A DNA stretch of 64,000 bases, taken from Gracilariopsis chorda. Taxonomy: Eukaryota; Rhodophyta; Florideophyceae; Gracilariales; Gracilariaceae. The notes below the pieces were generated by a model. It had not been told where the DNA came from and ran no database searches. It was given only the letters and a program-made list of their open reading frames with translations. This document shows positions 10,199 to 29,159 of the stretch, piece after piece. The position numbers and the translations under genes are program-made. Numbering within the stretch: the first letter of the stretch is position 1; each line of letters starts with the position of its first letter. Location of the stretch: assembly GCA_003194525.1 (NCBI GenBank), contig NBIV01000025.1:124001-188000 (forward strand), written 5' to 3'.

Positions 10199-11892
10199 TT
10201 GAGAAAGTACGTAGCGTCCCAAGACAAAACACCCACCATGCCAATATCAATGCCACGCGACACGTCCAAAGTAAAGGCCAACCACATACGGCGAGAATAT
10301 TTGCAGGCACCCTGCCGTGAAGAAGCAAACTTAATCAGACAGCACCATACTGTTGCAGACGTTTCAGCAGCAACGTCAATTAGCAACCGCACTATCCATC
10401 GCATCAAAAAAGCAATAAGAGAAAGCCAAAAACAGACACTCCACCGACTGCTTACCCCAACAAAGCACTATGCGGGACGCAAACCAGTTCTGAGTTCCTC
10501 AAGAATATGGTAGTGAACGCGCGATTTTTGCGTCTGAGCGAGCTTCCACCATTGGGTAGCATGAAATGCGCTCCATGATGGTGCAAGTTGCTAACGATGG
10601 CCATAAGAATTTCAAAAACAAATTGCCGTCCATGTGGGCTCTACGCTCGTTTTGGAAAAAAAAGGCCATTGACAATGCGGAGGACGGAAAACGTAGTACT
10701 AAAACGCATTAACCCGCAAAAAACAGAACATCTCCAGACTTTTTTTGATGTGATAAATAACGTCAGGCGAGAGATGCCAGACATCTTTAAAGATGAGCGA
10801 AAAATCTGGAACCTTGATGAAACAGCTCTATCAGCCTCATACGGACGTCTTTATAGGACATTTAGTGCAGCGGACCGGAGAAGCGGCGGCCTGCAAATGA
10901 AATTGAAAGACAATGGGAAGCATCTCACGTCTGTTATAATAGATTGTGCTGCAGGTCACACAGCACCAATGTTTCTCATTGCACAAGGGAAGAAGCCAGT
11001 GAAAAACTAGATGAAACCGGTACAAGAACAGGTAAACGGAAAGCTACCAGCAGCTTACCAATGGCTAGGGGAGGAAGATTGGCTTCTCAAGGCCACTAAA
11101 ATCTCGTGCAGTACCAAAGGATCGATCAGCCAGGATTTACTCTCAGATGTAGTTATTTACTTCAACTATTTTGCACCCAAGTTTGTTCAGCAAGTAGAAA
11201 AGATTCTCCTGTACATTGATGGACATAGTTCATGAAAGGGATTGGATTGGATCGATGCTGCCCTGGCCAAAAATATTTAGGTGATTGAACTCCCTGCCAA
11301 CACTTCTCACTTGCTCCAATGCTGTGACTAATGCAAAAACAAAATGTTCAAATAACAAGCCAGAAAAGCATTGGATATGTTCCTGTATACTGGTGCGTAC
11401 ATTAATGGAAACCTGTTTGTAAAAATGAAACTGGCTGCCAGTGCATGCAGGTCCATGGATGCGGCTCTTGTTGTGAAGGGCTTTTATAACTGTGGATTAT
11501 ACCCCTTAGATACGGAGAAGATCATGAGTTGTGCCACAACGTCAGCTCTGAAACCAAAAGAGAACACAAAGGTTCACCTTCAGGACACTGAAAGTCGAAG
11601 AATTGCCGACAACACCATTGCACAGAGATTGCGTGAAATAGTGGGGAAGGTGAGAGATTCCAGTGATTTTCCCCGTCAAATCGAGAATTTACTGCAACAG
11701 AATCCCTCTGCAAATTGTGTTATATGGCGCCCGGAGCCTCTCATAACGCCAACCAAAGCAAGGCCTGGTGCCAACCCGGGCGATGCTCCTGCTCTGAGAC
11801 TCACGAATAGAATTTTTGTGACACGTAACGCCAGTTTGTTGGCCATTGATGCAATGGGGTCTGCGTCGGTTTCGACTGGAGAAAACAAATAG
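10199..11892 (+). pseudogene. pogo/Tigger-like (DDE_1) transposase pseudogene
   Basis: Decayed transposase of the pogo/Tigger type, which would cut and paste DNA with a DDE/DDD active site. The N-terminal part (10199-10513) holds a helix-turn-helix (VSAATSISNRTIHRIKKAI). The chain then passes through a second frame and continues in a third from 10588. There I see the first catalytic block IWNLDETAL (about 10807), the second YIDGHSS (about 11215), the classic block LPANTSHLLQCCD (about 11290) and a C-terminal GLYPLDTEKI block (about 11495). In-frame stops occur after DGHSS (TGA, 11233-11235), before VIELPAN (TAG), after QCCD (TAA) and later (TAA), and at least one frameshift lies between 10513 and 10588. 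The element is dead. I did not identify terminal inverted repeats. Confidence 0.85.
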
Positions 11893-13621: not shown

Positions 13622-13729
13622 TGTAAGCACTGAAAGCGGGGGAAGGCGCGATGGTATCGTTTACAGAGACTTGGCTTGCTTATGAATAGTCCGGTCAACC
13701 GCCAGCGGTACTGCACTGTGCGGTCTGAC
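13622..13729 (-). repeat. 3' LTR of the split copia element
   Basis: Aligns without gaps to 29052-29159 over 108 bp at roughly 80% identity by eye. On the minus strand it ends in CA. The shared block caccgctagcgg-like core (agcggtactg on plus) and gcttatga are the best-conserved parts. The LTR is short, so the outer edge on the RNase H side is uncertain by a few bases. Confidence 0.75.
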
Positions 13730-14454
13730 GCGATCTGAAGGTTGTTTGTTTGTATGAGGGGAGGTGTGTGCACGGTGAGCAACAGGAGTGGTTTCGTTGC
13801 GGTCTGACAGTCCCGGGTGTTGCGAGCCTTGTTGATGTGATATGAGAGGAAAGGTCAGGTTTAGATGTTGTAGAGCTGTGGGGAAGGCAGCTCTTTTGAC
13901 GGGCTTTGTTAGTATGTCGGTTTTCCTGTTGGTTGACAGTACATGTTTGATGTCAATAGCCCTCATGTTTTGGTGATAGTTGAGATAGTGGTGTCGGAAA
14001 TCGATGAATTTTCGATGCTTAATTGGTGCTGTGTTCAGTGCCAATTTGATGGCTGCTTGATTGTCAATGAGATGTGTTGTTGGGAAGGCTTTTTTATGTT
14101 CTAGGTCTTTCAGGATTTCTTGAAGCCAAACTGTTTCCTGAGTTGCTTTTGTGGCAGCCATATATTCCGCTTCGCACCTACTGAGTGCTAGGGTCTTATG
14201 CTTGGCTGCGGTCCAGTGGACTGTACAGCTGTTGATTAGATGCAGTTTTCCAGAGTACGAACGTCTGTCGGTGGCGTTGGCATAGTCTGAGTCGTAGTAT
14301 CTGGTTAGTGTGGTGGTAAATTGCGCGAAGTAGGTGATGCCGAGGTGCGGGGTGTGAGTGAGGTAGCGTAGAAGGCGTTTGAGTTGTGCCCAGTGGGCAG
14401 CGGTTGGGTTGTGCATTTCGCCTGCGCGGCGGTTGGTGGCCAACGTAACGTCAG
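13730..14454 (-). pseudogene. copia RNase H and pol C-terminus
   Basis: C-terminal part of copia pol, which degrades the RNA strand during reverse transcription. Visible blocks are AHWAQLKRLLRYL (connection domain), YYDSDYANATDRRSYSG (first catalytic Asp region), SRCEAEYMAATKATQE (catalytic Glu), HLIDNQAAIKLA (catalytic Asp) and the terminal KTDILTKPV. The open frame runs on into the LTR. The start near 14443 is not a real start: the frame is the downstream half of the RT/RNase H domain, whose upstream half ends at 25470, on the far side of the 11-kb insertion. Confidence 0.9.
14440..14454. repeat. Left target-site duplication of the 11-kb element
   Basis: ccaacgtaacgtcag here against ccaacgaatgtctgg at 25455-25469. 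The first six bases are identical and, allowing one 1-bp gap, 12 of 14 aligned bases match. Both copies lie at the same codon position of copia pol (RPDI/TLA), which is what a target duplication predicts. A 14-15-bp duplication is long for a DNA transposon. Confidence 0.65.
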
Positions 14455-14471
14455 TGTTCTCGTTATACTAG
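14455..14471 (+). repeat. Left terminal inverted repeat
   Basis: TGTTCTCGTTATACTAG. The reverse complement of the right end reads TGATCTCGGAATGCTAG; 13 of 17 positions match. The repeat starts directly at the inner edge of the target duplication. Confidence 0.6.
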
Positions 14472-14575
14472 TTTGGCATTCAAAAGGCAAAGAACTAAAA
14501 TGAACGAATAACGACTCTTCAAACCCAATTTTGAATGAATCAAATTTCTCAAAATAATTCCATACATAGCACAGA

Positions 14576-14654
14576 GCTAGTTTGTTTGCTTGGGACAAAA
14601 GACTAGCAGTATACTAGACATTTCTCAGTTTCTTTGGAGGTAAAACTAGCGCCA
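14576..14654. promoter_or_regulatory. Left subterminal motif cluster (AAACTAGC, AGCGCCA)
   Basis: AAACTAGC occurs at 14576-14583 (minus) and 14643-14650 (plus). AGCGCCA at 14648-14654 overlaps the second copy. The same two motifs recur near the right end. Clustered subterminal repeats are the usual binding sites of a transposase, so that is the inferred role. Confidence 0.5.
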
Positions 14655-14742
14655 GACTCGACTAATACCTACCCTCTCAGGTGCACGTGGAATCCAAATC
14701 TTACTGGTCCTGAGCGAGTGCCCTTTCAAATAGCAAAATAGA

Positions 14743-14771
14743 ATAGATAGAATAGATAGAATAGATACATA
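14743..14771 (+). repeat. gaatagata tandem repeat
   Basis: About three units of the 9-bp word gaatagata just upstream of the transposase-like ORF. No function is visible. Confidence 0.7.
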
Positions 14772-14793
14772 GCGTTTACATAACCAAATAGCT

Positions 14794-16236
14794 TTGGCTT
14801 TCTATCACCCGTTGCTCGACCTGCTCCCTGCATCGCATGCTCTACCCCACGGCCTACGAAAAGACGCTCTGCATCACGTGCACCACCTCATCTACATGCG
14901 CCATAATATTACGCTCCCCGATATCCCACTCCGCCACCACCCTCCCTTCTCTGTTTCCAAGCATCCCGTTCTCCGTTCTCCTTCCCCCGCCATGATACCC
15001 TGTTGCCATCCCCGTTGCACCTTCTATGGCCACACCGCGTTCTCTCTCCAGAGTCACCAACGCAGGTGCCCTCATCGACTGCCCCCGACAAACGCCCTTC
15101 CTCCTCCGCAAACGCCCCCGTCCAGCTCCCTCCAAGGACCAAGCGACGAAAATCCGTTCCAAACCTCTCCACCATTCGTCCTGCCACTCCCTCACACCGC
15201 CCCTCCGACAACGTCCCCTCGCCGAAGATGAACCTTATCACATCCAAAAGGCCTCCCTTTCCCTCCAAACACAAGACGCACACCACATGGCAAGTCACGC
15301 CCTCTGTTCAGTCTCCTCCTCAAACCCACCTCCCCATACGTCGTCCCAATCCCCCTCCCTCTCCTCAACAACCCCCATCTCGAGCAACTCGTCCTCTGCA
15401 TCTCCTCCATCGCTTCCTCCGTCAGCACACGCAAAGCCGACGAACTCATCTCCCTTCTCAACCACCCAGACTTCTCCAAGTCATTCTTCCAGAAATCCAT
15501 CTCCTCCGCAAAGCAGTGCCTCGCACTCCAAGAACACCTCCTCAACGGAAGTATCAACTCCACCAGTTTTCTCCCTCTCACAATCTCCGACGAGCACAAC
15601 TCCTTCTCCGCAACTCTCTTCCAAAAAGGCGCCATAGACGTCCTGAAGCAACAACTCGCTCTCGCACACTTCAACAACATCTTCTTACAACGCGTGTCCC
15701 AATCTTCACCTTACTCTTCTTCAACCCCCGCCTTCACCCATCCTATAGCCGCAGCCTTCGGAAACAAAGTCGTTCCTGTCTTTAAACAGGCCATCACGCA
15801 GTGCCACATCAATGATATTGTCTGGCACACTCCCGAAACAACCGGTATGGAATCATTCGTCGGTCTCGTCCAGTTATACTCCGATACGTGTGTAACCTCA
15901 CTCAAAGGCTCCTCCATCACCTCTTACCCCCTTCACATCACCCTTCTCAACCTCTCCGACGCATTCCACCGAAAGTGTGTCTCCCAAAACCCCACCCTAC
16001 TCGGATACCTCCCAACTTTCTTCTCCCCCTCTTCCTCCCCCGGCGACGGATACCCAATCCCACATTCGTCCTCCAACATCCCACGCGAATCAAGAATGGC
16101 CCTCATTCAGCGCGCAATCTCTGCAATCTTCCGTTTCGAAGGTATCCCCAGCGCTACCTTCGCTTCTCTACTCCCATTCCTAGCTATAAAACGCAGGTCA
16201 CCGTCATTGCAACCTTCATTCTCCAATTCTTCATGA
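14794..16236 (+). pseudogene. C2H2 zinc-finger protein with KDZ/Plavaka-like YSD block, candidate transposase
   Basis: One frame is open for about 480 codons apart from a single TGA at 15229-15231. Near the N-terminus a C2H2-type finger reads CCHPRCTFYGHTAFSLQSHQ, as in Plavaka-type fungal transposases that begin with one finger. About residue 365 the block LVQLYSDTCVTSLKG is followed by PLHITLLNLSDAF, then RKC and LLGYLP. This matches the spacing around the first catalytic Asp of KDZ transposases (YSD, then a TLGN-like strand, then GFLP). The C-terminal half with the remaining catalytic residues is not visible after the stop at 16234, so the gene is truncated or continues elsewhere. The 14794 start is TTG; in-frame ATGs lie at 14896 and near 14992. 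The family call rests on pattern memory only. Confidence 0.5.
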
Positions 16237-16246
16237 TGTAGTTCTC

Positions 16247-17980
16247 TTACCCTCTCCCACGCCACCCCAAGTATTTTCTCCACCGCAAGCCGAAGATGTT
16301 CCCCGTACAACTAGAAAATAACAACTGCCTTCTTCCTCCACGCCCCATATCTGTGTCCAATGCTGTCAAAACACATCCGATCCACGCATCCAAACGAGCC
16401 AAATGCATCACTGTCCCATCAACGTACTCCATCTCTCCCTCCCTTTCCGTCCCCAGCTCATATCCCATGAATTCTTCCAACACTTCCACCGCAGCCCCGT
16501 TCTTGAAGTACATGTCCTCTTCACTTAACTCCGTCAGCTGACCAGCAACCTGAAATCCAGAATATGTAAGATCCTCGATTGTTCTCATCCTCCAAGAACA
16601 TAAACTACCGCTCTTCGCCTCCCCATCCCCCTCGAACTTCGTCTTTGCTTCCTCTCACTGCTTCTTCAACTCAATGTCTAGCCCCGTCCCCTCTCGCAGT
16701 CTCACACGTCTGGCGATCAAGTAATATCCAAGCAACGAAAGCATTTTGTCTGGTGCCGCACGCTTCCGAATCCCAATCAAATCACTCAAATTCTGCTTCA
16801 TACGTTGCCTCAAACACCTGTCCGCAACAACCTCCCACACGCATTGATCCTTCCTACCCGCATCACTAATCGACTGCCATCTCTCCCCCTCAATCTCAAC
16901 CCCAACCAAGTACTTCAATTGGTCATTACTTCCTCCTCGTGACGAAGGCGTGTACGACCTCATCTCAGACGCGATCTCAAACGGACATCGAGGCACAATT
17001 TCCTTTCCTCTGACGACAAACACACTCCACTCTCTTCCCTTCCCCAATACTTTGCATCGATTCTTCCAGTTTCTTTCCACACCCTCTGAAGTAAAACAAA
17101 ACTCCGATACCTCCACCTTCGCATAGTACAACAACCTATCATATAATACCCTGGCAAACCCATAAAACCTCTCTTGCACATCAACTATATACTTCCTACA
17201 CCCTCTGAAGCCATTTTCACCTTCAGATCCCTTTCTCTTCCCTCTTCTTACCTTCATCCATTCCCGTAAGCTATCTATCAATATATTCTTCTCGCTCATC
17301 TCTTCTCTCATCCTCTTCAGTTCCTCTTGCGTCAGCTTCAGCGACATCTTTTGGCTGCAGTGGTCCCCTTTGATCTGTCCGAGTTCTGCCCTCAATATAT
17401 TGACCCTCTCAACTAACGAAGATCAAGAAATCACACCGATGTCGTCATTTCCTGCATCTCCCAAAACATTGACAGGCAGGCTTCGCTCGTCAGCAGGTTT
17501 TCTTGGCGACCGATGAAAAATTCATTTTCTCTCTCGCATGCCTTCCAGAGTCTGCCGCGCTCTGCTTCCTCTATCACTTTCCAAGTTTTCAGCCATTTGC
17601 ACCTTTCGCGTCCGCACGAGTGTGCTTGTACGGTCTCCGCTTTTCGATGCTTCCTGTATTCCATCCGTCCCTCTGACCACTTCTTCCACTTCTCGCGTTT
17701 CCTTTAAATTAGAGCGGCGTCCCACTCCTTCGTTTATCATATCTCTCGTCCATCTCTCCTTCACAATGTGATCCTCTTCGTCCCCATCACTGTGTTCCAA
17801 AGAGACATTTACCTCTCCTACATCTCGGTTTCCACTTGGGGCCCCACCTCTCTTCAGCGCACCAGCCTCTTCTATTTGTTTCCTTCCGGGCATATCTTCA
17901 TCCTTATTTCGGTCTTCGACCGGCGCATTTCCTTTCAACTCTCCCTGATCTGTTACCTCTTCCGTTCTCCGAACAACCAA
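16247..17980 (-). pseudogene. Unknown acidic/coiled-coil protein of the 11-kb element
   Basis: One minus-strand frame is open for about 578 codons except for three stops, all TGA (near 17522, 17437 and 16656). The N-terminal third is very acidic and hydrophilic (Glu/Arg/Asp). The middle has a heptad-like stretch (LTQEELKRMREEMSEKNILI) suggesting a coiled coil. The rest is mixed and globular-looking, with segments such as YIVDVQERFYGFARVLYDRL and LTYSGFQVAGQLTELSEED. I recognise no domain. There is no ATG before the acidic region; the first in-frame ATG is at MPGRKQIEE. It converges on the transposase-like ORF with only about 10 bp between them. It could be the missing half of the transposition machinery or cargo. 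Confidence 0.45.
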
Positions 17981-18618
17981 CCCTTTTTAACCCTCCACTC
18001 TACCACCCGACCCAGCCATAGATCGCTGTCCCTGAACCGAATCTCTCCCGCCTGCTATATGCGCATGGGCATCAGCCTTCAAATTCTCACTCGTCGTGCG
18101 CTCACTCGTCGTGCGCTCGGATCCGACGTTCTTTGCCCCACCTCTTCCCCCTTTCTTCAAAGCACCTTCTCCTGACCTCCTCCGCGATAATCCGCTCCTG
18201 GGAACACATGATTTAGCTTTCGTTCCACCGCGGTTCGCTCCTCAATAGCCTTTCACCGCCTCTTAGCCGCACTCGCCGCACTACCCCTTCCTGGGCCTCG
18301 CGTTTTTCCCTTCGGCGCGATTCTTGGAGTCAAAACTCTTGCGCAAGTGGATGGTGACGCTCTGGGTTGGCGCACGCCGTGTGTTTTCCGGGAAAATCTC
18401 GCCACCCGATGCGCACAAAAATCTTTGCTTTTTGTGAAATCTTGAAAATACAATCCTCGGTGGTACCGAAAATGGACGTTTCTGTGTCACATCTATATCG
18501 CTTTGTATCTTCTATTCTTACTGAAAAGTGATGTTCTCCTAAGTTAGGACTACACATACGTTCAAATAATAAACGTCGCCCTTTAGCCAAGCTGTGGACA
18601 AAGGTTTATAACAAAAAA
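17981..18618. other. Intergenic DNA within the 11-kb element
   Basis: Contains a direct duplication of ctcactcgtcgtgcg at about 18088-18118 and otherwise pyrimidine-rich plus strand up to about 18.3 kb. Short open frames here show nothing recognisable. It lies downstream of the methyltransferase-SET gene. Confidence 0.5.
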
Positions 18619-21600
18619 CTAATCAATGACTATCGTTCCATCCTCCACATTCAAATGGGTTTGCCAGTCATAAACATCACCGTATCTGGCGAGAAGTTCC
18701 TCTCCTTGCTCTATGTTGGCTGCCGCCTCCATCTTAATAAGTTTGTAGTCCGTTATTCCCCCTGGTGTTCGTCCCACTCCCGGTGTCCGTTTCATTCGTA
18801 CATTAGCCTCCCTTTTTTTTAAGGCCATCCACCATGGCATCTAACTGTTTATCCCCTTCCACGTACTTTGGATCGTTGATATACCCCGCAATACAAAAAG
18901 GGGCAGGAACCACCCATAAAATGGGGTTTGCTTGTTTTCCATACCAGTTCGTCAGCTGTTTTCGATGTGGAAGTGACTGGAACTTTTGACCGTAGACTTC
19001 TATCTCCACCGCATACTTCCGGAAGCGATCCTTCGTCACACCCATGACTCCCTCCCCGTAGGTCTTGTGCACTTCTTTCCGATTCGGGTCATGATAAACC
19101 AACGTCCAGTAGAAATAGCACATTACCTCGCCTGCAGCAATTCGACGAGTTGCAAACACTCCAACACCAGCCTTTTCGTGACGAATAATAGACTTGCCCA
19201 CTGGCAACCCATATTGCACAGCCTCCATTGCCAATAGAGACTTCATGTTCTCCAGATTCATTCTTCCCTGCAGCTCCCTCGGCCATCCATCCATAGCTTT
19301 CTTCCTTCCCAACTTCCCTAGAATTTCACTTTGCCACAAAGTGGAGAGAAAGTCGACAAGGTGTAGGGGAAGAATTTGGTAGGGTGGATATCCGTCGACA
19401 GCCCTCCATAACACGGTGTGCCTGCTTCTTCCCGTTTGGAATGCAGAGAAAACACAATCGGCCATCTTTCGAAGCTCCTGGCTCTTCTCAATATCCGTGT
19501 GTCCTTCCCGTATAACGGAAGCGAAGCGAACAATAGCGGCATGCCTGGCGTGTTCAATGCAAGCTTTGTCCGGTTCACACCCTACAAACTGCCGATACCT
19601 GGGCAGTTCCATGCACTCCATCGCTATCGAGAACGTTCCGGCAAACATGTCGACCACGAGGTCTCCTGGCTGACTGAACCTGCAAATCAGCTCTTTCAAC
19701 AATGCCCTACACTTCTGTTCCGGTCGCACCCTCTTCCTCGTATACTTCCCATCCGGGGTTTTTACAGACAACATGAGCATCTCAGTATTTGACATCGGCG
19801 GCACCTGATCCATGATTGCATGATACGCTGGGTATCGTGAAGCAACATAATTGAAGTTCTCATAGTTGACCATCCGGTGCTGTTGTGCATAAGAAACTCC
19901 AGAAAAAACAGCATATACAGCGTATTCTGTCGTCTGGTGCAACCGGCAACTTCTTCTCCCAGCGTTACCCGTCGTATTACCTAAAGACGGTACGAAATGG
20001 AGGGGCTTTTCGTCGACGACAAATGAGTAACGTTTCGTATCAGAGTCATCCATGTAGGTAACTTTCCGTAGCACATCCCGCCACAACGGTACCTGATCCC
20101 ATGAGCAGAACTGTATAATATGTCCACCAGGACGTAGAAGCTTTGACGACATCCTCGCTGACCAGCTCATGCCCTTCTCGGTCAGAATATCGTGTTCGCT
20201 GTTCTCCAAACGACGCTCAGAACGAGTCCCATATGGCGGATCGGAAAGCAGGAACTGTACCCTTCCTTCAATAGATACCTCGCTTTCGCCAGACTTGTTG
20301 TCGTCAACTCCGATGAGATTTTCGGACTTGCAGTTGTGGAGACGGAAGGTGCAGGACATCTCCTTCTCACAATACTTGTAAGCTATCACATCATCCAAAG
20401 TCTTAGAGTACGGTGGTGCACGAATCCCCGTGCCTTCGACATCATACGATAAGTTCTGCGACAAAGCTGTTGTCTGCAGTTCTTCAGTGGCCTTTGGTGC
20501 AGTACCACGTTCCGCAGTATCACGTTCCGCATCCTCTACCATCTCTATGTCTTTCACTTCTTCCAACTCACCCTGACCACCACCTTTCACACGCTCAGCA
20601 CGTTCGTTCCCACCACCAGCCGTACCAGTTTCTACCGGCTCCATAATGATGTCAACGTCTTCTGCGTGCTCTGATTTCACAGCTTGATGTACTTTGACAT
20701 TGCTTCCATGCAATGCAATGAGCTTCAGAGGCTTTATGGCCTCTTGAACCGTAGTGACAAGAGATTCACTAAAGTTCTCAAACCGCAGAGGGAAAAGTGT
20801 CGTTCTCGTGATGATGAAACTTTGAGGGCATCCCATTTGCTGGGAGCAGAGATGTCGAACAGTTTCTCTTGTACCACCACACTAGAAAGGTCACCAAGAT
20901 ATTCTTTGGCACAGAGGCGAAGCGCTGTATCCACTGGGTCCAGCAGATTCCATGCCTATTTGGTAACGTTTTCTTCTACGGTGGTGGCGTTCTTCTCCTC
21001 CACAAACTGTTTGGAACAATCTTTGTGTTGGGAGCCCATGAAGCGTTGTGCAATATCGGTGAAGACTACACTGATATAGTCGAGTCGAATGTAAGGCAAG
21101 ATCATAACCTCAACGATAGAAAACCCGAGGAATTGGGCGAAACAATCCCAAGCCCTGGTCACCAGCTGCACACCATACCCGACTCTCTGAATCTGGGTTT
21201 TGTCCGACAAACTCACTTTCGAGAACTTCGTAGCTGCCATGCCCCTTTTCCTCTTCCTACCACTTCCTTTCTTATCCACGGCATTCTGTTGCACCATAGA
21301 CAACCCAATGACCATTTTAAAGTCGGTGCAAGGATCCGTGTGGGAAGTGGAAGATTTCTTGGTTGCTCCCAGAACACGGGACTTGCAAAAGACAGATAGC
21401 AACACGTTACGGGGAATTCCTTTAAGCCCTTCCCTTTTACAATAAACCTTCCAAAAGTCCCTTACACGCCTGTCTTCTTCACGGTCCGTTACGTCCACCA
21501 CTCTTGCCATAAGATAGACTTGACGTGGAGGGCCTCTGAGAGACATGTTACGGAGCTCGGAGTCCGAATACGAGATGTAATCCGGTCCGATGAGAGTGAG

Positions 21601-21837
21601 AAACATTTTCTTGGCAGAGTCATGAACGTTGCGACTTTGTACCGCGAACTCCACAAAGTCGGTGTGCTTCAAACTTCTCGGCTCATCCACATTTTGCCTC
21701 GTCGCTGCGTAGTCATCACGAACTGCAAGATAAGCATCAATAAGCTCTTCTCCGGTTCCGTGCGTCTTGAATGAACCCGTTTCCTTCGGATTATGTTTCT
21801 CTTCGTTTTTGGTCGAGGACCGTGGTCCGAGGTGTCA
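18619..21837 (-). pseudogene. N6-adenine DNA methyltransferase fused to a SET domain
   Basis: The chain covers about 1070 codons in three pieces. The first 290 or so codons (21837 to 20958) are unassigned; no ATG follows the upstream TGA, so the true start may be in an upstream exon. A TAG interrupts at 20956-20958, and the frame changes near 20.8 kb. The core then carries FLLSDPPYGTRSE (motif IV, about 20235), followed about 195 residues later by VVDMFAGTFSIAMECM (AdoMet motif I, about 19645) and GCEPD. Motif IV before motif I is the beta-class order, and DPPY favours adenine-N6. From about 19.2 kb a SET domain follows: GVGVFATRRIAAGE, AGYINDP, then after a run of eight A (plus-strand T, about 18811-18818) a frame change, ANVRMKR and IEQGEELLARYGD. 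The protein would methylate DNA adenine and probably a histone lysine. The breaks may be decay, sequence error or, for A8, slippage. Confidence 0.75.
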
Positions 21838-21960
21838 TGGTGCTCCATCACGAACACCATGGAGCGCCAGGCATGAATTTTAATTAAAATTTCGCGTCCT
21901 GGCGCTTCATCGTGTTCGCGATGGAGCACATCGACACCTCGGACCATGATCCTCGGCCAA
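21809..21960. promoter_or_regulatory. Long imperfect inverted repeat between the divergent cargo genes
   Basis: Arms of about 73 bp face each other around the perfect 16-bp centre aattttaattaaaatt (21876-21891). Matching blocks include gtccgaggtgtc with gacacctcggac, and gagcgccagg with cctggcgctt. Arms match at close to nine in ten positions by eye with a small length difference. It sits in the gap between the methyltransferase-SET reading frame (-) and the ParB-like gene (+), where a shared promoter would lie. Each arm holds one AGCGCCA motif. It may be an operator-like binding site, a cruciform, or a small inserted hairpin. Confidence 0.7.
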
Positions 21961-22157
21961 AAAATTATCAAATTCTTTTTGCAATGCAATTAATTGGGAG
22001 GGGAATTGCAGGGATGCTACGTTGACGACAATGGATGTCATGAAACGTCATGAAAACGATATATAGTGCTTACGTCCATCTCTTTGGAACCAAGCATACG
22101 TGATCACGGGAGCATTCGACGTCAGCGGGTGCCAAGAAAACGCAAGGGCGACCTTTG

Positions 22158-24250
22158 ATGTACTCAGCCATAGATTCCACTGGGAATAAGATAAACGCAC
22201 CATCACGGAAAGGGACTCCGAGGAAGCCTGTTTCGCCAAAGAGACGTGTTATCGACATGCAGACCACGCGAGGCAAAGCGAAGAGCTGGGGTGCCGCCCG
22301 AACTGCCAGCCACCCTGAGCCATCAATTGGGGGCAATACGGGTCAGGTGCTTAAGGGCGATGCGGAGGTCAATCTGTTCGTACGAGTTGGGAGTAGTGAT
22401 GCGATGGTGAAGGGAGGAGAGGCGAAATTGCGCGGTGTGGGGGTTGCTGGGGGGCCGGGGACGAGACTCTGTCGTTCACTACACACTCATCTCCTGTCCT
22501 CTACGCAGAGACCTGGAGAGGACTTGGTGGTTATCTTTAAGACAAATATTTCATCACACCAAGATGAGAAGTACCCTTATGTTTTTGGAGGTCCCGAGGA
22601 ACCGCCCGCAACTTTGAAGGAGATGGTTTCAGCGGGTTTATATGCATGGGACCCTGCCATGATGAGTGTCACAAATGAAGGCGGAGAGGGGAATGAGTCG
22701 GTTCCACCGCAATCAGGAGCAAATGTGAAGACTGTCCACAGAAGTACAGCTTCCAGGACCACTGCAAGACAAGTCAAGCGCCTTCCCGCTGTTGCTGGTA
22801 CACCATCAAGCATTTTGGTGACCAAAGCGCCTTTGAAGAGCCTTGAGAGCGGTGGAGAGGCTCCGGTGAAAACCTGTCAGAGCGGTGGAGGAACATCAGG
22901 TGCTCTCGCGGGCGGCTCTGGAAACCGAGGAGGCCCAGAATTCGGAGCAAACTCCGATGATGACGTCATAGAGGTGCCTGTACTCTCCAGGAACGATCTT
23001 GATACGGAGAAGAGGGTTTTATGTGATGACGGTGATGCTGTTCCTTCGGAAGAGGTGGATAACAGTTTGGGTGTCTTCGACATCAATCGAGATGATTATG
23101 ACCAGCACAATTGCGTAATCAATATCCACAACATTCGATTTCCGAAGAACATGGTTCGTTCGAAGAATGGCAAATATCTTCGAGATACTTCGAACAAACT
23201 GAGGGACTTCGGATGGCTTCCTTTTCTTGGGTCGATTGCGGTGGCCCTGTTGGAGAATGTGCCGGTTCGTGACGCTATTGATGCGAGTGGGCGTTTGATT
23301 GTTCCTGTGGTTTTGGTGGATGGCTTCCATCGAGTGAGTGTTCTACTGGACCTCGAGCAGGATGGTGCGAAATGGGCACGGATTACTGCTGGTTTGAACG
23401 TCACGCTTTGGGAACGGAACGACGGCCGGAGAATTACATTGAATGAGGTGTTGTGGCTGCGGAAGACGTTGAATGATTTGAGCTCCAATGTTCTGGTGAT
23501 GTCCTTCGCAGATAAGATTCACACTGCTGTTTCGTTTATTCGTAATGGCGTAGAGCAGGATGGGTATGAGTTGTCGAAGCTTAAACCAAGCCAAATCACG
23601 CGGGTGTTGTGGAGCAGTGAGACGAAGGGGAACGAAGGGAAGATACGTCATTTCAATCGCCAGTCTGCTCTTGCTCTGAAGTTTGTGCGTAATCCTGGTC
23701 TGTTAGAGTTCTTCGATGTGGTGTGTCAGGAGACGCCTCAAATTGGAATCACTCCTGTGTCTAGTGATATTCTGCTTGGAATGTCAGGGGATAAGTTTTG
23801 TTTTACTATCCAATGTCTACAGGCGCATGTTCGAGTGAGGTCGGCGGCCACTGTGAAGATGGGACCATTTGAGGATTCCGAAAGTACTTCTTCGACTGCG
23901 CTTCTAGAACGTATGACATTTGCAGTGAGCTGGGGAGTTCCATGAAGGAGAAAAAGAATGTACAGGAAGTGATGAATACCATGGTTACCATCGGCGATTC
24001 TGACCAGACTGTGTCAAAGTATATCATATCTCGTCTGGGGAAGTGGTATACGAAAGCGAAACCCAGCTCACTGGAGTCCAGAGTGAGTAATAAGGTGAAA
24101 GAGGTTCGTAGGACGTTGTCCAGCGCTTTTTCGGGCATGCAGGGACAGGATGCTACTGCTGCTGCTCCCTCTGCGGCCGATGTGGACGTGATCAAGTTGC
24201 TTGGTCTGAATGAGGAAGCTGCTCAGGAGCCTCTGAACGCTGACCAGTAG
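22158..24250 (+). pseudogene. ParB-like domain protein
   Basis: Begins at the ATG at 22158 (MYSAIDSTGNK) in a good frame. Residues 1-300 are basic and low in complexity, probably disordered. The conserved part starts about residue 310: FPKNMVRSKNGKYL, VPVRDAIDASG, then VVLVDGFHRVSVLLDLEQ, the (D)GxHR signature of the ParB/sulfiredoxin-like fold. Next comes ITLNEVLWLRKTLNDLSSN, like the helical region after ParB domains. The frame is broken once at about 23881-23884, where a run of A is one base short; the next frame carries on with KYFFDCASRTYDICSELG and ends at a TAG at 24248-24250. Standard ParB proteins bind DNA and some relatives are nucleases; which applies here is unknown. It is divergent from the methyltransferase-SET gene across the inverted repeat, suggesting a shared control. 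Confidence 0.65.
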
Positions 24251-24256
24251 CCTTGA

Positions 24257-24889
24257 AGAAGTAAGCGAATCTCAAAGAAGCGTAAAGCGGAGGTCCTGGA
24301 TGAAGATGAAGATGAAGAGTCAGTTGATTTTGAGCCACCGGTGAAGAGGCAGAGACCATCGAATCGTAAGCCGACTGCACCTGATGTGAAGCGATTTGGA
24401 TTTGGTATCTCGCAGGAGGTGGTGGAGGTGCTGTGTAGTATGGAAAGCAGAGATTTGAAGAGGTGGTTGACAGCACAGGAGATCATTGTGCTCGAGTCAA
24501 GCGAGAATGAAGCTCAGGATGACTTTGTGGATGATGAGGAAGACGAGGCAGAGGAGCAGCAAACCGCAGGCAGCTTTGACGATAAGAATCCTGACAAGCT
24601 TCCAGCTGGCTTAAGTACTCCAGGAGAGCTGGCTATGGGAGCGGACATGTCTTGGGTGGACCAGGTATACTCGCTGCCGAGTGAGTGGCCTGCAAGCGGA
24701 AATGCAGTGAAGCATTCCCATCCATGGATGCAGAGGATAAATCTGAGGAAGCACCATCGGGCGGAGTGCCTATCACCTGATGACTTCCGAATGGTTCATC
24801 ATGCTGTGTACTGGCGTGCGTCACGCAACATGCACAAAGAGATGGGTATTACGACACGTGCAGTGCTTGGCGTGAAGATGGGGTCGTGA
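24257..24889 (+). CDS. Lysine-rich acidic protein downstream of the ParB-like gene
   Basis: An open frame in the same phase as the end of the ParB-like gene, starting right after its TAG and a TGA. It begins with a basic block (SKRISKKRKAEV), an acidic run (LDEDEDEESVDFEPP) and a nuclear-localisation-like PVKRQR, then about 180 codons ending in a TGA at 24887. A second acidic run (DDFVDDEEDEAEEQQ) lies mid-protein. No ATG is present before MESRDLKRW, so it may be a C-terminal exon or a continuation of the ParB-like protein past two stops rather than a separate gene. No domain recognised; nuclear location is inferred. Confidence 0.4.
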   Translation, partial: RSKRISKKRKAEVLDEDEDEESVDFEPPVKRQRPSNRKPTAPDVKRFGFGISQEVVEVLCSMESRDLKRWLTAQEIIVLESSENEAQDDFVDDEEDEAEEQQTAGSFDDKNPDKLPAGLSTPGELAMGADMSWVDQVYSLPSEWPASGNAVKHSHPWMQRINLRKHHRAECLSPDDFRMVHHAVYWRASRNMHKEMGITTRAVLGVKMGS

Positions 24890-25164
24890 AAAGGAGGTTG
24901 GTGGAGAAGAACGAAGAAAGATTGGAGGTTAAGAGTCTGTTGAAGAGGACGCATGGAAAGAGGGAAGAGGGAGAAGAAGGCAAGTGATGTTTAGGAGTGT
25001 CGTTGAGGCTGTTAGGATGACAGAATGGGTGGTATTGGAATCTGATGCGCGGTGCGTCGAGTGTGTGAGAACGGAGAGAGCTACCCAGATGAGTTTCTGA
25101 GGATGAGTTGGAAGTCAAACTAGGGCAGTATGAAGTTTGAAATTCAAAAGATGGAAATAAAAAT

Positions 25165-25371
25165 GCTAGTTTTGGTTGGGTGCTCGAAATGGCGCTGGCC
25201 ACTGCTTGGCCAGCGCCATTTTGAGATCTGTATCTAGCTTTTAGTGGAGAATGAACTTGCTCCAAATTTGAAACTAGCGATGCGCAGTGCAGGTGAGGCA
25301 AGGCTCTGTAAGATATGGAAGTGTGAATTCCAAAAATGTTTTTTTTTACTTGGCAAGCGCCAGAAACTAGC
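25165..25371. promoter_or_regulatory. Right subterminal motif cluster
   Basis: AAACTAGC at 25165-25172 (minus), 25271-25278 (plus) and 25364-25371 (plus). AGCGCCA at 25190-25196 (minus), 25212-25218 (plus) and 25356-25362 (plus). These are the same words as at the left end. Probable transposase (or ParB-like protein) binding region. Confidence 0.5.
25185..25223. repeat. Compact 16-bp hairpin near right end
   Basis: cgaaatggcgctggcc, a 7-nt loop (actgctt), then ggccagcgccattttg. The arms pair at 15 of 16 positions. Each arm holds one AGCGCCA. In bacteria it would suggest a terminator; here a binding site or transposon-end structure is likelier. Confidence 0.8.
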
Positions 25372-25437
25372 AGAATCTATCATTTTCGTAGTATTTTTGA
25401 GCTTTTGCCTAAGAAACTTGCGATGTAGCACCTCTAT

Positions 25438-25454
25438 CTAGCATTCCGAGATCA
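25438..25454 (-). repeat. Right terminal inverted repeat
   Basis: On the minus strand reads TGATCTCGGAATGCTAG, the partner of 14455-14471 with four mismatches, directly next to the right target duplication. Confidence 0.6.
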
Positions 25455-25469
25455 CCAACGAATGTCTGG
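25455..25469. repeat. Right target-site duplication of the 11-kb element
   Basis: ccaacgaatgtctgg, partner of 14440-14454. On the minus strand it encodes the PDI of the copia RTRPDI block. Confidence 0.65.
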
Positions 25470-26515
25470 CCTCGTTCTGTCTGATATGTAGCGCAGATCT
25501 GCGAGTATTGTTTGGAAAATTTCACTTGGTTTGGTGGGATTGGCTAGGCATCTTTGTCTTTAGTGCATATGTACGGGGTGTCCTTAGTGTTGCAGTCGGT
25601 GAGGTTCGCCTTGTGGAGAAGGGCGCAGATTTGGTGTGGTTGTGAGAGGTCGATGGTGCCACATGGTGTGAGTGTGACCTCCCAATTGATAAACTGCGTG
25701 GATATGTCGAGGCGTTTGATGGTGTACTTTGCTTTTAAGTACTCATAGAATTAGGTGATGCTTTCGGTGTTGGGTGCAGTGACAAGGAAATCATCGATGG
25801 TGACTATCACGATGAGAAGGCCATTGGGAATTTGTTTGGTAAATACACTGGGTTCTTCTGTGGATTGTTGGAAACCATGTGTTAGAAGGTAGTCGGTGTG
25901 TTTGGAGAAATAAAGGTAGGAGGCTGGTGGTGTACCATAGATATTCCCTTTCAGCATGCCTGCCTTGGGGTTGTGCGTGTATGTACCGCTGAATTGGGAG
26001 GGTTGGCGTATGTACACGGTGTGCTCAGGATCGTAGTGTTCGTGTAGGTAGGCATCCTTGATATCCATGTGTTCAATGGTGTATTTCGTGATGGCTATGA
26101 TTGCAGAAATGAGTGTGATGGACGATTTTTCGAGGGTATAGATTGTGGTTTTGTTGGGTTTGAAGTAAACTTGCGGTTTCATTAGGTCGCTACGGACTGG
26201 GCTACAGACTTTATAATCTGTGATGCTGCCATTTGTGGCCGGTTTGTATCTGTACGTCCTACGAAGTGCGATGAGTTTGGTGTTCGGTGGGAGTTCGCTG
26301 TCAGGGATCCATTGGATTGCTTGGTTTTGATCAAGGAGGTCTAGTTCATGGTTGTGCGCTTGGGGCCATTTTTGTGTCTCTGGGTATTTTGTCGCCCATT
26401 TGTGGAAGGCAGGGGGTGGCTTGTTGGTTGTAATGGTGGTGGTCGTTTGGTGACAGTTGCGGAATGTTTTTAACGCGATATTGATGTCTTGGGCATTATC
26501 TTTTGGTGGGATCAT
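25470..26515 (-). pseudogene. copia reverse transcriptase (RVT_2)
   Basis: Copia-type reverse transcriptase, 5' half of the domain whose RNase H half is at 14454-13730. Visible blocks: HMDIKDAYLHEHY (first catalytic Asp), VTIDDFLV (the YVDD-type pair), then past a TAA at about 25751 the frame continues with LKAKYTIKRLDI, LSQPHQICALLHKANL and FQTILADLRYISDRTRPDI up to the insertion. A second TAA lies at about 25566. It overlaps the integrase frame by about 20 bp in another phase, which shows a frameshift in the original single pol ORF. Confidence 0.9.
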
Positions 26516-27260
26516 ATGGATGGAAGTCAGTGGATCGTACTGTGTGGTACGTGTGTTGTGGGATTAGTTTTATGCAGATCAGTGCATCCGTGACTCCGTG
26601 GATGTAGCGGGAGATTTGGGCTTCGGGGGCAAGTTTCGTTTTCGTTTTTAGGGTGGGGAAGGTTATATAACCTATTTTGCCAAAAGTGAATAGTGGAGGG
26701 TGGTTGAGTGGTTGTTGATGCCTTGTTGTGTACGGCAGTTGGTGTGTTGTGGTATTGAGCGTGATGTTGTGTTTGAACAGGGAATAGAGTAAAGCATCTT
26801 CCCAGCATTTGGGGGTTATTTTAGCGTGATTGGCAGCTGCTCTGGCTGCGTTGAGTAGGTTTCGGTTCAGCAGCTCCGCAAGGGATTTCATTTGCGGTTT
26901 TTAGGGGACCGTGGGTATTTCTGTGATGCCTTGTTGATTGTAGTGGCTGTAAATGTCTGCTGAGATGTATTCTTTTGCATTGTCGCAGCGAAAGAATAGG
27001 GGAAAACGTCCGTGGTGACTTTCGACTTGATGCATGCGTTGTTTGATCAATTGGGTGCCGTTATTGCGACTATTGGTGCAGTTGATAAGTGCCAGACGTG
27101 ATTTTGTTTCCAGGAAAGTCATGAATAGGTTGTTGCTGAGGTTAGACGTGATGGGGAGCGGGCCGCAGACGTCGCTGCTGACATGTCGACCACTTATTAT
27201 GAGTGGGCTTTCGGCTAGTGGGGCTCGGGCGTAGCGTTGCCGACTTTGTACGGTGCGCAT
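26496..27260 (-). pseudogene. copia integrase
   Basis: Core integrase: VSSDVCGPLPITSNLSNN (first catalytic Asp), FFRCDNAKEYISADIYSHY (second Asp), then a stop near 26901 and, in the same frame, NLLNAARAAANHAKITPKCW (catalytic Glu helix region) and the copia C-terminal part. Decayed but unambiguous. Confidence 0.9.
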
Positions 27261-27800
27261 GTGATGGTGGGGGTTTTGCGTAGGAGTGCAGCTGGCATCT
27301 TTGATAGAAGTTTGTGTTTGGCCATGTTGTGTACGATTGGGAGGCTGACGTGGTTGTATGTGAGGTGCCAGCTGTGGTATGCTTTGCAGGTGGATGTGTG
27401 TGTGATGGTTGGGATGCGGGGCTCAGTGACCGGTGGGATGTGGAGGGTAGTGTTGAGGATGCGTGTGCCAGTAGTGAGTGGATACGGGCGTTGTGGTTGA
27501 GGGTACGATAGGTTGCCTGTTGGTGGCGGTGATTTAGATTAGGTGGGGGTGGTAGGTACAGCGCGGGCTACGCGTGCGGCAGGTGTGTTCTAATGGGGCG
27601 AGGGGGAGGAGGTACATTCTATTCACATATGGGGCTGTACTTGTTTGTCGAGGTAGGTGTTTGTGTTGCCAATTGATGATTTCGGCATTTGTCGAGGAGA
27701 AAGACACTTGGCCAAAAGTCTTTGCTACATCATAGACAGAGGTAAGGTTGGTATTGATATTCTTGTAAACAACCGAAGGTACTTGGAATGCGATGCCATT

Positions 27801-28810
27801 TCAGAACGCAAGAGTGGAGGATCCTGTGTAGGATAAAGGGAATAAAGAGATAGTAGCACCGCCTGAGTGGAGTCTCGTTGCGGGTTTCATGGTGATTGAA
27901 GGGGTGGATAGGTGCGTTGGTGACGCTGCATAGTCAAGTACGGATGTACAATTGTCAGCCTGTTCTGCGTTGTCGGGCTCCATGTAGGGTAGGAAATCGG
28001 GAGTACTTGTGGGGTTATCGGGTTGTTTGGGCGGGAGGTCTGTGGGGTCGTTTAGTGTGTACTTGGATTGGTTGGGGGCCGCAGGTGTGTTGGACCTGAA
28101 GGGGCTTTGTGCGAAGCATTGGGCGTTACTGTGTGTGGGGCTTTGGTGGTAGGAGCACCAGACATTTTTTCATTGCTGAGGGAGTGTGCGGCAGTACTGC
28201 CTACATCTGTGATAGTTTCGTCCATGGGAGCGAGAGGGTCTGCGGTGGGGATTTTCGGGTTTGGTGAGTGAAGGAAATGGAAAAGGTGTGTGGGGTAGGT
28301 TTTGGCGGAATAGGTCCGTTTGTTTGATTCATGTAGCGAAGGCTTTGATTGTGGCCGGGGGCTGATGAACATATGTTATCCAGTAGTGATGTATTGGTAG
28401 TTGTATTGGAGGCCTTCGTTAAGGAAGCGGACTGTGATGGATTCTTCGTGTACGCCTGGGTATTTGGAATTCACCATTCTGGTGCGTAGTTGTTGTTGTT
28501 CTTTGGGGTACTCATTAAGTGGTTTATCAGGTGTGTAAACAATGGTTCGGGCTTCGGCTTCTAGGAAACGGTGCGTGGTTTCAGTGTTGGATGGGATGTT
28601 GGTATTTATGGCTTTAAGGATCTTTTAGGGCGTGTCGGAGTAATTGTCGGGTGTGACTATCGAGTATATTTTGTCTGGTAAGCTGGGAAGGATTATGGTC
28701 TTGAGGACAGCTTCGTGCTTTGTGTGCAGCGGGGTTTGCTTGGGGTCAGTGGATATTTCTGGGTTGCCAAGGAGTTGGGGTGTTGCATCGTGTATTATAG
28801 CTTGTTGCAT
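27801..28810 (-). pseudogene. copia protease and gag remnants
   Basis: 27983-27801 reads SVLDYAASPTHLS, the aspartic protease active site with DSGAS changed to DYAAS. 28372-28052 and 28810-28625 are Pro/Thr-rich and helical fragments at the position of gag. Frames change between them. Placement between the 5' LTR and the integrase supports the call more than sequence does. Confidence 0.55.
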
Positions 28811-29040
28811 GGTGCTTGCTTATCATATTGCCATGTTATCTTGGTTTAGGGTTGGAAAATGTGGTGTTTAGGGGTCCATGTTGACTTTCTGTATGGTGTC
28901 GATAGGGGTGTGTGTGTCGGTTGCTGCTAGGTTGGCTCTGCGCAGGAGGTCAGTTGTGAGCTCGTAGATTGACGGTCTTAGTTCTCTATCGAGAGCGCGA
29001 AGATTTCCGGGGGTGAGACGAGGGCTTGGTTATGAATGTC

Positions 29041-29051
29041 GGCCCATAACC
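29041..29051 (-). other. copia primer-binding site, initiator tRNA-Met half
   Basis: Directly inside the 5' LTR the minus strand reads GGTTATGGGCC, complementary to the anticodon stem-loop of eukaryotic initiator tRNA-Met (GGCCCAUAACC). Drosophila copia and yeast Ty5 use this internal tRNA half as primer. Confidence 0.75.
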
Positions 29052-29159
29052 TGTGAGGCCTGAGAGCGCAGGAAGGCGCGAGAGTGTCGTTTACTGAGAG
29101 CCGGTCTGCTTATGACTAGTTTTGTCAGCCGCTAGCGGTACTGTACTGTGCGGTCTGAT
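29052..29159 (-). repeat. 5' LTR of the split copia element
   Basis: Gapless partner of 13622-13729 (about 80% identity by eye); on the minus strand ends in CA immediately before the primer-binding site. Confidence 0.75.

Follow-up and report, generated by a model that had tools for sequence, protein, structure and literature searches.

Fungal Plavaka elements (PlavakaA and PlavakaB; Kojima 2025, PMC12730594) use a transposase of the same family as the element described here, with C(2)C and an H(3)H, and generate 2-bp target-site duplications; some PlavakaB families are reported there to carry epigenetic cargo as well, namely a TET/JBP dioxygenase. The KDZ elements (Kyakuja, Dileera and Zisupton) are likewise large DNA transposons with chromatin cargo, but their transposase is unrelated and the duplications of Zisupton measure 8 bp (PMC12730594). 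HarbingerS and Phytophthora MuDR elements (cited in PMC12730594) are DNA transposons encoding SET histone methyltransferases, although they belong to other transposase superfamilies and the passages of that article describing them mention no DNA-methyltransferase fusion. The N4CMT protein of bdelloid rotifers is also a eukaryotic, bacterial-type PF01555 amino-methyltransferase fused to a chromatin domain, and its description states that it has "no eukaryotic homologs" (PMC8885841). SymbioLINE-Dnmt, SymbioDIRS-Dnmt3 and marine-virus DNA transposons with a DNMT are further mobile carriers of DNA methyltransferases, the Symbiodinium elements being retrotransposons with C5-cytosine DNMTs; the relevant passages mention no SET fusion for any of them (PMC5890265). 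Very large repeats flanked by Plavaka transposase are described in Amoebidium, but the relevant passages speak of clusters of intron-poor genes, many of them encoding tyrosine recombinases, and of no methyltransferase-SET gene (PMC11244446).

Transposons carrying DNA-methylation erasers, SET enzymes or C5-DNMTs are already known. A single selected protein combining a bacterial-type amino-methyltransferase with SET would be a new route for a non-canonical mark into eukaryotic chromatin. No published transposon with a DNA-methylase-SET fusion was found in searches of the open-access literature, a scope outside which Repbase reports and most subscription papers fall.

We analyzed a window of 64,000 nucleotides from the red alga Gracilariopsis chorda, in which an element is inserted into a copia retrotransposon (Table 1). 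This copy is a decayed, internally deleted and non-autonomous relative of an approximately 18-kb element, a large Plavaka-type cut-and-paste DNA transposon (CMCT clade, CACTA-related). The boundaries, the 2-bp duplication, the transposase family, gene content and order, the large copy number and purifying selection on the cargo are all established, and we regard the identity and anatomy of the element as practically certain. Compared with fungal Plavaka elements, it differs in its size, in its termini and in its cargo, a methyltransferase-SET fusion. That this cargo marks the element's own copies against host silencing is the overall reading that we favor on balance.

Insertion site and boundaries

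The preliminary description had recognized an 11.0-kb insert in a copia pol gene, with copia coding sequence resuming across it, and both observations held. When the copia flanks were joined with a single AA, the reading frame RYISDRTRPDI, continuing across the junction into TLATNRRAGEMHNP, was restored, and the LTR segments at the two ends of the host element were detected as a repeat pair. Each 500-bp flank was also searched separately in the same genome, and both flanks were present at six loci besides the window. Five of these six copia paralogs, the empty sites that the preliminary description had proposed to look for, are uninterrupted at the insertion point: the two flank matches abut base to base in three (C73, C2 and C134) and do so once 11 and 2 bases are extrapolated in two others (C82 and C202, respectively). 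At the sixth (C6), approximately 14 bases are deleted at the junction, and a second interruption follows further on.

The extent of the whole copy was called from homology to elements of a young family with exact ends, together with the empty sites. The inverted termini, previously read as 17 bp, proved to be imperfect repeats of 23 bp, each extending 6 bp beyond the outer limit given earlier. The 14-15-bp flanking duplication proposed earlier is ruled out by the empty sites, which give 2 bp (AA).

Table 1 Features of the transposon copy and its copia host, in positions of the window.
Feature	Position	Strand	Basis or remarks
Whole transposon copy	14449..25460		11,012 bp, inside copia pol; internally deleted and frameshifted
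Left terminal inverted repeat	14449..14471	+	CGTCAGTGTTCTCGTTATACTAG; 23 bp, imperfect; aligned with ends of other copies
Right terminal inverted repeat	25438..25460	-	CTAGCATTCCGAGATCACCAACG; 23 bp, imperfect; aligned with ends of other copies
Target-site duplication AA, left	14447..14448		Frame join, copies, empty sites
Target-site duplication AA, right	25461..25462		Frame join, copies, empty sites
Host copia, 5' part	25463..29158	-	Takes in LTR segment 29052-29158; RVT_2 E 3.4e-18 at 25751-26515
Host copia, 3' part	13622..14448	-	Takes in LTR segment 13622-13728
Left subterminal region	14449..14948		AACTAG(C) repeats
Transposase remains, N-terminal part only	14776..16131	+	tblastn of 1160-aa relative; block map; Pfam Plavaka
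Gene X remains	16125..18205	-	tblastn; 821 aa in young family, coiled-coil-like by eye
Methyltransferase-SET fusion gene	18622..21780	-	Three broken frames: 20956-21834, 18803-20881, 18619-18840
Long palindrome	21806..21963		Arms of 66 nt, complementarity 86%; lies in the gap that separates the methyltransferase-SET gene from the divergent ParB-labelled gene
ParB-labelled gene remains	22185..24880	+	tblastn; 1417 aa in young copy, approximately 380 C-terminal residues missing here
Right subterminal region	24961..25460		AACTAG(C) repeats

Copies and families

At least 40 left ends and at least 40 main right ends were scored in the genome, the window's own being counted in each, and the ends other than the window's were 93-97% identical. 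Matched 2-bp duplications flank nine of 13 other window-family copies (P approximately 7e-8 at an assumed chance rate of 8%) and are absent from four. Among ten young-family copies retrieved, all eight whose sequence covered both ends have matched 2-bp duplications. The young-family copies are 99.0-99.8% identical in aligned blocks, and this family has recently been amplified. The search for further copies that the preliminary description had called for was productive: ends were constant among the copies read, variable end points being seen in neither the window family nor the young family, and its suggestion of a large DNA transposon is supported by many copies with fixed ends. The bacterial or phage type of the methyltransferase would also suit an integrated virus, contamination by bacteria or a cluster of host genes, but such origins are refuted by the precise insertion into copia and the empty sites, and by the many copies that show inverted repeats and target duplications; we give them a negligible probability.

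Transposase and gene content

The preliminary description did not recognize the type of this transposon, but its transposase belongs to Plavaka (PF18759), a family assigned to the CMCT clade (PMC12730594). The Plavaka profile matched the 910-aa frame of a relative (L034:353-3082) with E 1.7e-21 and 77.3 bits against a cut-off of 26.3, and the 1160-aa frame of C31 with E 2.7e-21. The remnant in the window, which lacks approximately 1.1 kb corresponding to C332 index 10006-11115, gave E 1.7e-4, under the cut-off. Plavaka places number 114 in this genome, 110 of them above the cut-off, against none in 14 control genomes. The 1160-aa transposase has one CxxC at 510 and an HLLDH at 788, the latter being one of four H(3)H; both are candidates for the motifs between the catalytic D and E. 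The 2-bp duplications at the window and in the copies of both families agree with the 2-bp (or 3-bp) target duplications of Plavaka. Given that the termini read CGTCGG..CCGACG, and not TGT..ACA or CATCA..TGATG as in PlavakaA and PlavakaB (PMC12730594), the element is placed in Plavaka by its transposase, outside both named lineages. Membership in KDZ was rejected: no KDZ profile was among the Pfam matches, and the duplications are 2 bp.

The long form of approximately 18 kb contains, in order, a coiled-coil-like 276-aa ORF, a 417-aa ORF for a putative membrane protein, the ParB-labelled gene (1417 aa), the methyltransferase-SET gene (1065 aa), gene X (821 aa) and the transposase gene (1160 aa). 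The methyltransferase-SET gene is divergent from the ParB-labelled gene, and the transposase gene is convergent. Each of the six ORFs is open in some young copy, with no copy among those read having all six open. Gene X had no Pfam match when a 702-aa piece of a relative was searched.

The genome holds at least 150 places that match N6_N4_Mtase (PF01555), to be set against the statement quoted above for N4CMT. A Plavaka place lies within 12 kb of 73 of them, in the same order in 71, and the order was also the same at all 53 places with the C-terminus of the ParB-labelled gene nearby; the cargo genes travel together, a point that the preliminary description had proposed to check. Neither neighbor was present within 12 kb of 51 of 150 methylase places, among them the window copy; no case of a cargo gene standing alone in host synteny emerged from these neighbor counts.

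The methyltransferase-SET fusion

Chief among the cargo is a protein of 1065 aa in which a permuted N6_N4 DNA methyltransferase is joined to a SET domain, a fusion already proposed in the preliminary description and now confirmed by profile matches to both parts. N6_N4_Mtase matched with E 3.6e-18 in a relative whose frame is open and with 5.9e-13 in the window. The DPPY motif (residues 524-527) precedes the AdoMet motif (near 720-727), which is the permuted (beta-class) arrangement, and both align with those of an annotated adenine methylase of phage PhiCh1. Among phage proteins, this enzyme, M.PhiCh1-I, matches the methyltransferase domain best (27%, E 2e-10). Searches with that domain alone gave at least 93 phage relatives in at least 600 stretches, at 22-43%, whereas no viral relatives were found for the whole fusion with whole-length patterns (57 stretches) or for the SET part (7 stretches).

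The SET region of the first member, searched alone, matched PF00856 with 27 bits against a cut-off of 22.4, over profile positions 1-105 of 105; within the full-length protein the score was 22.0 bits, slightly below the cut-off. All three members matched at E<=0.1 (best 1.8e-6), and one is 44% identical to the first. PDB sequence matches of the SET part to histone methyltransferases were weak, the best having E 0.0028 with a profile. From these motifs and profiles, the protein is very probably a DNA amino-methyltransferase and SET methyltransferase. An N6-adenine mark is the likelier prediction over N4-cytosine, judging by DPPY and by the nearest enzyme in phages, and the SET substrate may be other than histone.

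Most window-family copies of the fusion gene hold stop codons, and large transposons can carry captured genes, both of which would suit a passenger gene that does nothing for the element. Between the two element families, however, dN/dS was 0.15-0.18 across the N-terminal, methyltransferase (0.16-0.18) and SET (0.16-0.17) domains alike, with dS near 1, and gene order is the same at dozens of loci, including those of diverged families. The methyltransferase and SET domains are thus under purifying selection between families, which largely refutes passenger status and leaves it very improbable. Corresponding values were 0.18 for the ParB-labelled gene, 0.15 for gene X (over 254 codons) and 0.29 for the transposase. 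Within the window family, dN/dS was 0.67-1.04, as in near-neutral decay.

Possible roles of the fusion

In the reading that we favor, the transposase would bind the subterminal AACTAG(C) repeats and move the element, and the fusion protein would write an exocyclic-amino methyl mark on DNA as well as one on lysine, most probably at copies of the element itself. These marks would keep the cargo and transposase genes expressible despite host silencing. Judged from sequence, chromatin self-marking as the role of the fusion, which the preliminary description had put forward, is plausible, with an even chance of being correct.

The fusion might instead belong to the transposition machinery, methylating the CTAG of the subterminal repeats and thereby making the transposase sensitive to methylation when it binds or cuts; the methylation state would then couple transposition to replication, or limit it. 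CTAG is concentrated in the terminal 1 kb, at 11 per kb versus 0.7 inside the window element and 10 versus 1.0 in the young element, whereas 14 other palindromic tetramers (ATAT left out) showed approximately threefold terminal enrichment at most. Selection on the fusion is equal to or stronger than that on the transposase, and amplified 8-kb derivatives retain the methyltransferase domain. The repeats could equally well be plain transposase sites, however, as subterminal repeats are in other CACTA-like elements, and the SET domain would be left unexplained. We consider this role possible but rather unlikely.

Less likely still is that the cargo represses the element, silencing its own copies so that host damage is limited and restrained copies persist. 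The rotifer PF01555 enzyme, a host gene product with a chromodomain rather than a transposon protein with SET, deposits 4mC at transposons in silencing (PMC8885841), and the palindrome in the shared promoter region, which shows compensatory changes and has a homolog in the young family, could give feedback control or a hairpin RNA. Against repression stand the recent amplification of the young family to near-identical copies and the association of eukaryotic 6mA with permissive chromatin, as described in PMC12695648.

Self-marking could extend to a complete heritable system, in which the fusion would write 6mA or 4mC and methyl-lysine, the 1417-aa partner, whose motifs recall ParB and a 2OG dioxygenase, would read or erase the marks and the palindrome would be a control site; we hold this fuller version to be doubtful. 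If it were true, a bacterial-type DNA base mark would have been brought into a eukaryotic genome in bulk. Under this version, part of the non-CG methylation that has been reported in Gracilariopsis chorda (cited in PMC8566409) could be 4mC made by transposon enzymes, provided that bisulphite was the method of measurement. The question raised is whether mobile elements introduce 6mA or 4mC into eukaryotes and keep it there, and whether such a mark protects or restrains them. The observed/expected ratio of CpG was 0.86-0.90 for the elements, 0.89 for the copia piece and 1.02 for window positions 30001-64000. Composition therefore offers no hint of an element-specific cytosine mark; CpG and TpG content showed no sign of element-specific cytosine-methylation decay.

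The ParB-labelled gene

The ParB-like label of the preliminary description was supported by no profile search, and the resemblance is at the level of a motif only. ParB_N (PF02195) had no place in the genome at E<=10, with profile matches in 11 of 14 control genomes. In hhalign against ten phage ParB domains, the score was reached by five of 150 shuffles, and the element's own transposase scored as high (19.8 versus 19.5). With two parts of the 1417-aa protein, tblastn against phages gave chance matches only (best E 4 and 8). ParB family membership was therefore rejected as a demonstrated fact. M.PhiCh1-I is a single protein without SET in which the methylase follows an N-terminal region matching ParB_N (E 5e-5; 23.7 bits, below the cut-off of 26.3), whereas the ParB-labelled gene of the transposon is separate and divergent.

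A TET/JBP identity for the C-terminus was likewise rejected for want of a profile match: with the last 400 aa, Pfam gave none at E<=10, either to this family or to another 2OG-Fe(II) dioxygenase, and Tet_JBP (PF12851), which matched in only one of 14 control genomes, had no place in this genome at E<=1, a difference from PlavakaB cargo. No viral relatives of the C-terminus were found in 89 stretches.

By eye, the sequence L..GW....VDG.HR is ParB-like, and an HxD..H..R pattern recalling a 2OG dioxygenase can be seen in the C-terminal part of the 1417-aa protein.

Insertion site and boundaries

The genome searched for copies comprised 91.3 Mb in 1081 contigs. The copia element split by the insert matched RVT_2 (Pfam, E = 3.4e-18). 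For the detection of empty sites, the last 500 bp before the insert and the first 500 bp after it were queried separately, yielding 12 matches for the left flank and 8 for the right, with the window counted in each. Both flanks were present together at six loci besides the window. Left and right matches abutted base to base at three of these loci (C73, C2, and C134) and did so at C82 and C202 once 11 and 2 bases, respectively, had been extrapolated; C6 showed a deletion of ~14 bases at the junction as well as another interruption in the right flank. These copia loci fix the boundaries of the insert and its 2-bp duplication, with AA flanking both sides, and the copia frame was restored when the flanks were joined with a single AA. 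The preliminary description was thus right that an insert splits copia, and its limits of 14455–25454 have been revised (Table). Its 17-bp inverted termini became imperfect 23-bp inverted repeats on comparison with relatives of the young, near-identical family, and its 14–15-bp flanking duplication was reduced to 2 bp by the empty sites.

Features of the element and of the window (L numbers denote fetched loci; C numbers, loci elsewhere in the genome)
Feature	Position	Remarks
Insert	window 14449–25460	limits set by comparison with young relatives
LTR segments of host copia	window 13622–13728, 29052–29158	79% alike
276-aa ORF	L064 639–1466	coiled-coil-like (by eye); open in C204
417-aa ORF	L064 1640–2890	putative membrane protein (by eye); open in C204
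1417-aa ORF		labelled ParB-like; open in C204
1065-aa ORF		methyltransferase-SET; divergent from 1417-aa gene; open in C332
821-aa ORF		gene X; open in C31
1160-aa ORF		transposase; convergent; open in C31
Diverged, decayed fusion copy	L012 8604–9894	near C232 insertion; methyltransferase 35%, SET 44% identity
Direct repeats	window 34062–34417, 49297–49654	~15.2 kb apart; 76–86% identity
Tandem 15/45-bp repeat	window 57034–57177	period a multiple of three

Copies and long form of the element

Many other copies were found in the genome. At least 40 left ends and at least 40 main right ends were scored as matches, the window contributing one of each and the others being 93–97% identical; these counts are lower bounds, and the outer limit of the matches is set by the query itself. 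A matched 2-bp duplication was observed in 9 of the 13 other window-family copies with both ends read, the exceptions being C134, C382, C212, and C201. Young-family copies were 99.0–99.8% identical to one another in aligned blocks, and both ends were present in 8 of 10 fetched copies, all eight with matched duplications. Five of the eight were 7981–7987 bp long and the remaining three 7228, 9939, and 11168 bp, with additional deletions or insertions in C34, C187, C14, and C27. The last three of these each carry an extra block of ~1.95 kb (4-bp overlap) at one common position, which may represent a longer variant or an insertion that nested there and was passed on within a sub-line.

A long form was seen in the young-family copies C332, C31, and C204. 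Its length of ~17.96 kb is a composite of the right end of C31 and the left end of C204, which overlap with 99.4% identity over 5.9 kb; the ORF set, given in order in the Table, is likewise a composite, read without introns from different copies. In C31 the 1417-aa gene is interrupted by a stop codon and the fusion gene is frameshifted; in C332 the 1417-aa gene is broken and the transposase frame is 910 aa. Missing from the window copy are the transposase COOH-terminus, both left genes, and approximately the last quarter of the 1417-aa gene; the genes that survive are frameshifted. The 276-aa and 417-aa ORFs had no Pfam match.

Transposase and terminal sequences

The transposase of a relative matched Plavaka in Pfam (E = 1.7e-21), the window remnant falling under the cut-off (1.7e-4). 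At E ≤ 0.001 the genome had 114 Plavaka places, of which 110 exceeded the cut-off, and none of 14 control genomes contained any. The transposase contains C(2)C at position 510 and H(3)H at 788, the latter being one of four H(3)H in the protein; this pair would agree with the CMCT motifs of Kojima 2025 (PMC12730594). According to the same source, PlavakaA has 2-bp duplications and termini TGT..ACA, and PlavakaB has 2–3-bp duplications and termini CATCA..TGATG; the termini of the present element match neither lineage as there described. Its anatomy shows the element to be of the cut-and-paste type.

The two 500-bp ends of the window element contain 11 CTAG, versus 0.7 per kb inside, and those of the young C232 element 10, versus 1.0 per kb inside. 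Inside the two elements AACTAG is found once, compared with 13 occurrences in their 450-bp ends taken together.

Gene order

Places matching N6_N4_Mtase numbered at least 150, all over the cut-off; 150 of 175 candidates were scored, with the presence of a SET domain checked for part of the 150. Gene order was counted for these 150 places against 113 of 114 Plavaka places and 94 of 110 matches to the 1417-aa COOH-terminus, after omission of second pieces at any one locus and some short fragments. A Plavaka place lay within 12 kb of 73 methylase places, downstream and convergent in 71 of the 73, and a 1417-aa COOH-terminus place lay near 53, upstream and divergent in all 53. One or both neighbours in this order accompanied 98 of the 150 places (both in 26), and neither neighbour accompanied 51; ~3% would be expected by chance. 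Among close relatives (66 of 67 methylase rows, 81 of 84 ParB-gene rows, and 67 of 71 transposase rows), the two neighbours were in order for 30 and 26 of the 66 methylase rows, both for 8, and no other arrangement was encountered. The cargo genes therefore travel together in one order. The window copy is itself among the 51 places, its transposase remnant being too weak and its 1417-aa COOH-terminus gone; a lone methylase is therefore no evidence of a host gene.

The methyltransferase-SET fusion

Both domains of the fusion described initially were confirmed. The METHYLTRANSFERASE-SET protein of 1065 aa matched N6_N4_Mtase at residues 518–756 (E = 3.6e-18) and SET at residues 882–1044. In the whole protein the SET match fell just short of the cut-off (22.0 bits), and it reached 27 bits against the cut-off of 22.4 when the region was scanned alone, with three of three family members matching at E ≤ 0.1; one of these is a diverged copy adjoining the C232 element (44% identical) with SET motifs kept. 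The decayed fusion copy at L012 shows another family of the element.

The methyltransferase belongs to the permuted class, given that DPPY comes before the AdoMet motif. DPPY commonly denotes N6-adenine. Neighbours by sequence in the PDB were DpnA, CcrM, and similar enzymes, and the best phage match was the PhiCh1 enzyme annotated as an adenine methyltransferase (27%, E = 2e-10), whose NH2-terminus matches ParB_N (E = 5e-5, below that family's cut-off).

The 1417-aa gene

Searches of Pfam, NCBIfam, and PHROG assigned the 1417-aa protein to no family at a meaningful E-value; it had no phage relative above chance level, and PF02195 had no place in the genome. Profile-profile alignment with ten phage ParB domains brought the motifs L..GW....VDG.HR together; given that 5 of 150 shuffles matched this alignment and that the element's own transposase scored equally high, the ParB-like label assigned initially is unproven. 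A COOH-terminal HxD..H..R pattern recalls, by eye, 2OG-Fe(II) dioxygenases, a reading that received no support from profile searches. Many relatives of the COOH-terminus (39–57%) were found at C263:95218, C539, C179, C172, C125, and others, some in open frames of ~700–1350 aa; they imply additional families with the 1417-aa gene. In the phage loci L069, L070, and L076, a glycosyltransferase gene is adjacent to, or a short distance from, a gene of ParB-like or nucleoid-occlusion type, an arrangement that recalls base-modification clusters.

Palindrome between the divergent genes

A long palindrome separates the divergent fusion and 1417-aa genes, with arms of 66 nt in the window, perfect arms of 43 nt in young C232, and a more complex form in the long element. 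It was present in the window-family loci L001–L008, of which L001 is the window itself, and L030, in 9 of 10 fetched young copies, in C332, and in C31, and was partial in C204, where the locus ends. Nothing matched in the young copy C27 (L023, L024), whose alignment with C232 skips exactly that stretch, reflecting either a deletion or an assembly effect. One arm is identical between families at 32 of 40 positions (score of 48, compared with 26 for the best of 500 shuffles); for the other window arm, the score is 30. Among the 40 pairs, 26 were the same, 7 had changed on both sides and still paired, 2 had changed on one side, and in the window copy 5 were broken. The compensatory changes could be due to gene conversion between arms as well as to selection. 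The palindrome may serve as a dimer-binding site in the DNA or be transcribed into a hairpin.

Selection and proposed working

Between families, dN/dS for the fusion was 0.17–0.22 (eight comparisons), with single comparisons giving lower or higher values for the other genes (1417-aa gene, 0.18; gene X, 0.15; transposase, 0.29); these Nei-Gojobori script values are approximate, dS being near 1 between the young and window families. By domain (four copies), the fusion gave 0.15–0.17 for the NH2-terminus, 0.16–0.18 for the methyltransferase, 0.22–0.29 for the linker, and 0.16–0.17 for SET. The cargo was therefore under selection and functional while the families diverged. Seven comparisons with the window copy within its own family gave near-neutral values of 0.67–1.04, and the window family therefore looks dead.

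We propose that the transposase would act on the CTAG-rich ends and that the fusion protein would methylate DNA as well as a lysine, the element itself being the most likely site. Such methylation might keep the element expressible under host silencing. A silencing system for the element to evade is plausible because ~8% methylation, non-CG biased, and small RNAs at methylated TEs are reported for G. chorda in a review (PMC8566409). The fusion's mark may act either way on expression, given that 6mA is associated with permissive chromatin across eukaryotes (PMC12695648), whereas in rotifers a silencing 4mC is deposited by an enzyme that shares its Pfam family with the fusion methyltransferase (PMC8885841).

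Known separately are Plavaka carrying TET/JBP and SET in HarbingerS and MuDR (PMC12730594), retrotransposons with C5-DNMTs and, in marine viruses, DNMT-encoding DNA transposons (PMC5890265), and Plavaka giant repeats and integrated adintoviruses with a Dam methyltransferase (PMC11244446). We found no DNA-methylase-SET transposon in our searches of the open-access literature.

Elsewhere in the window, the direct repeats are probably LTRs of another long retroelement, and the tandem repeat is possibly coding.
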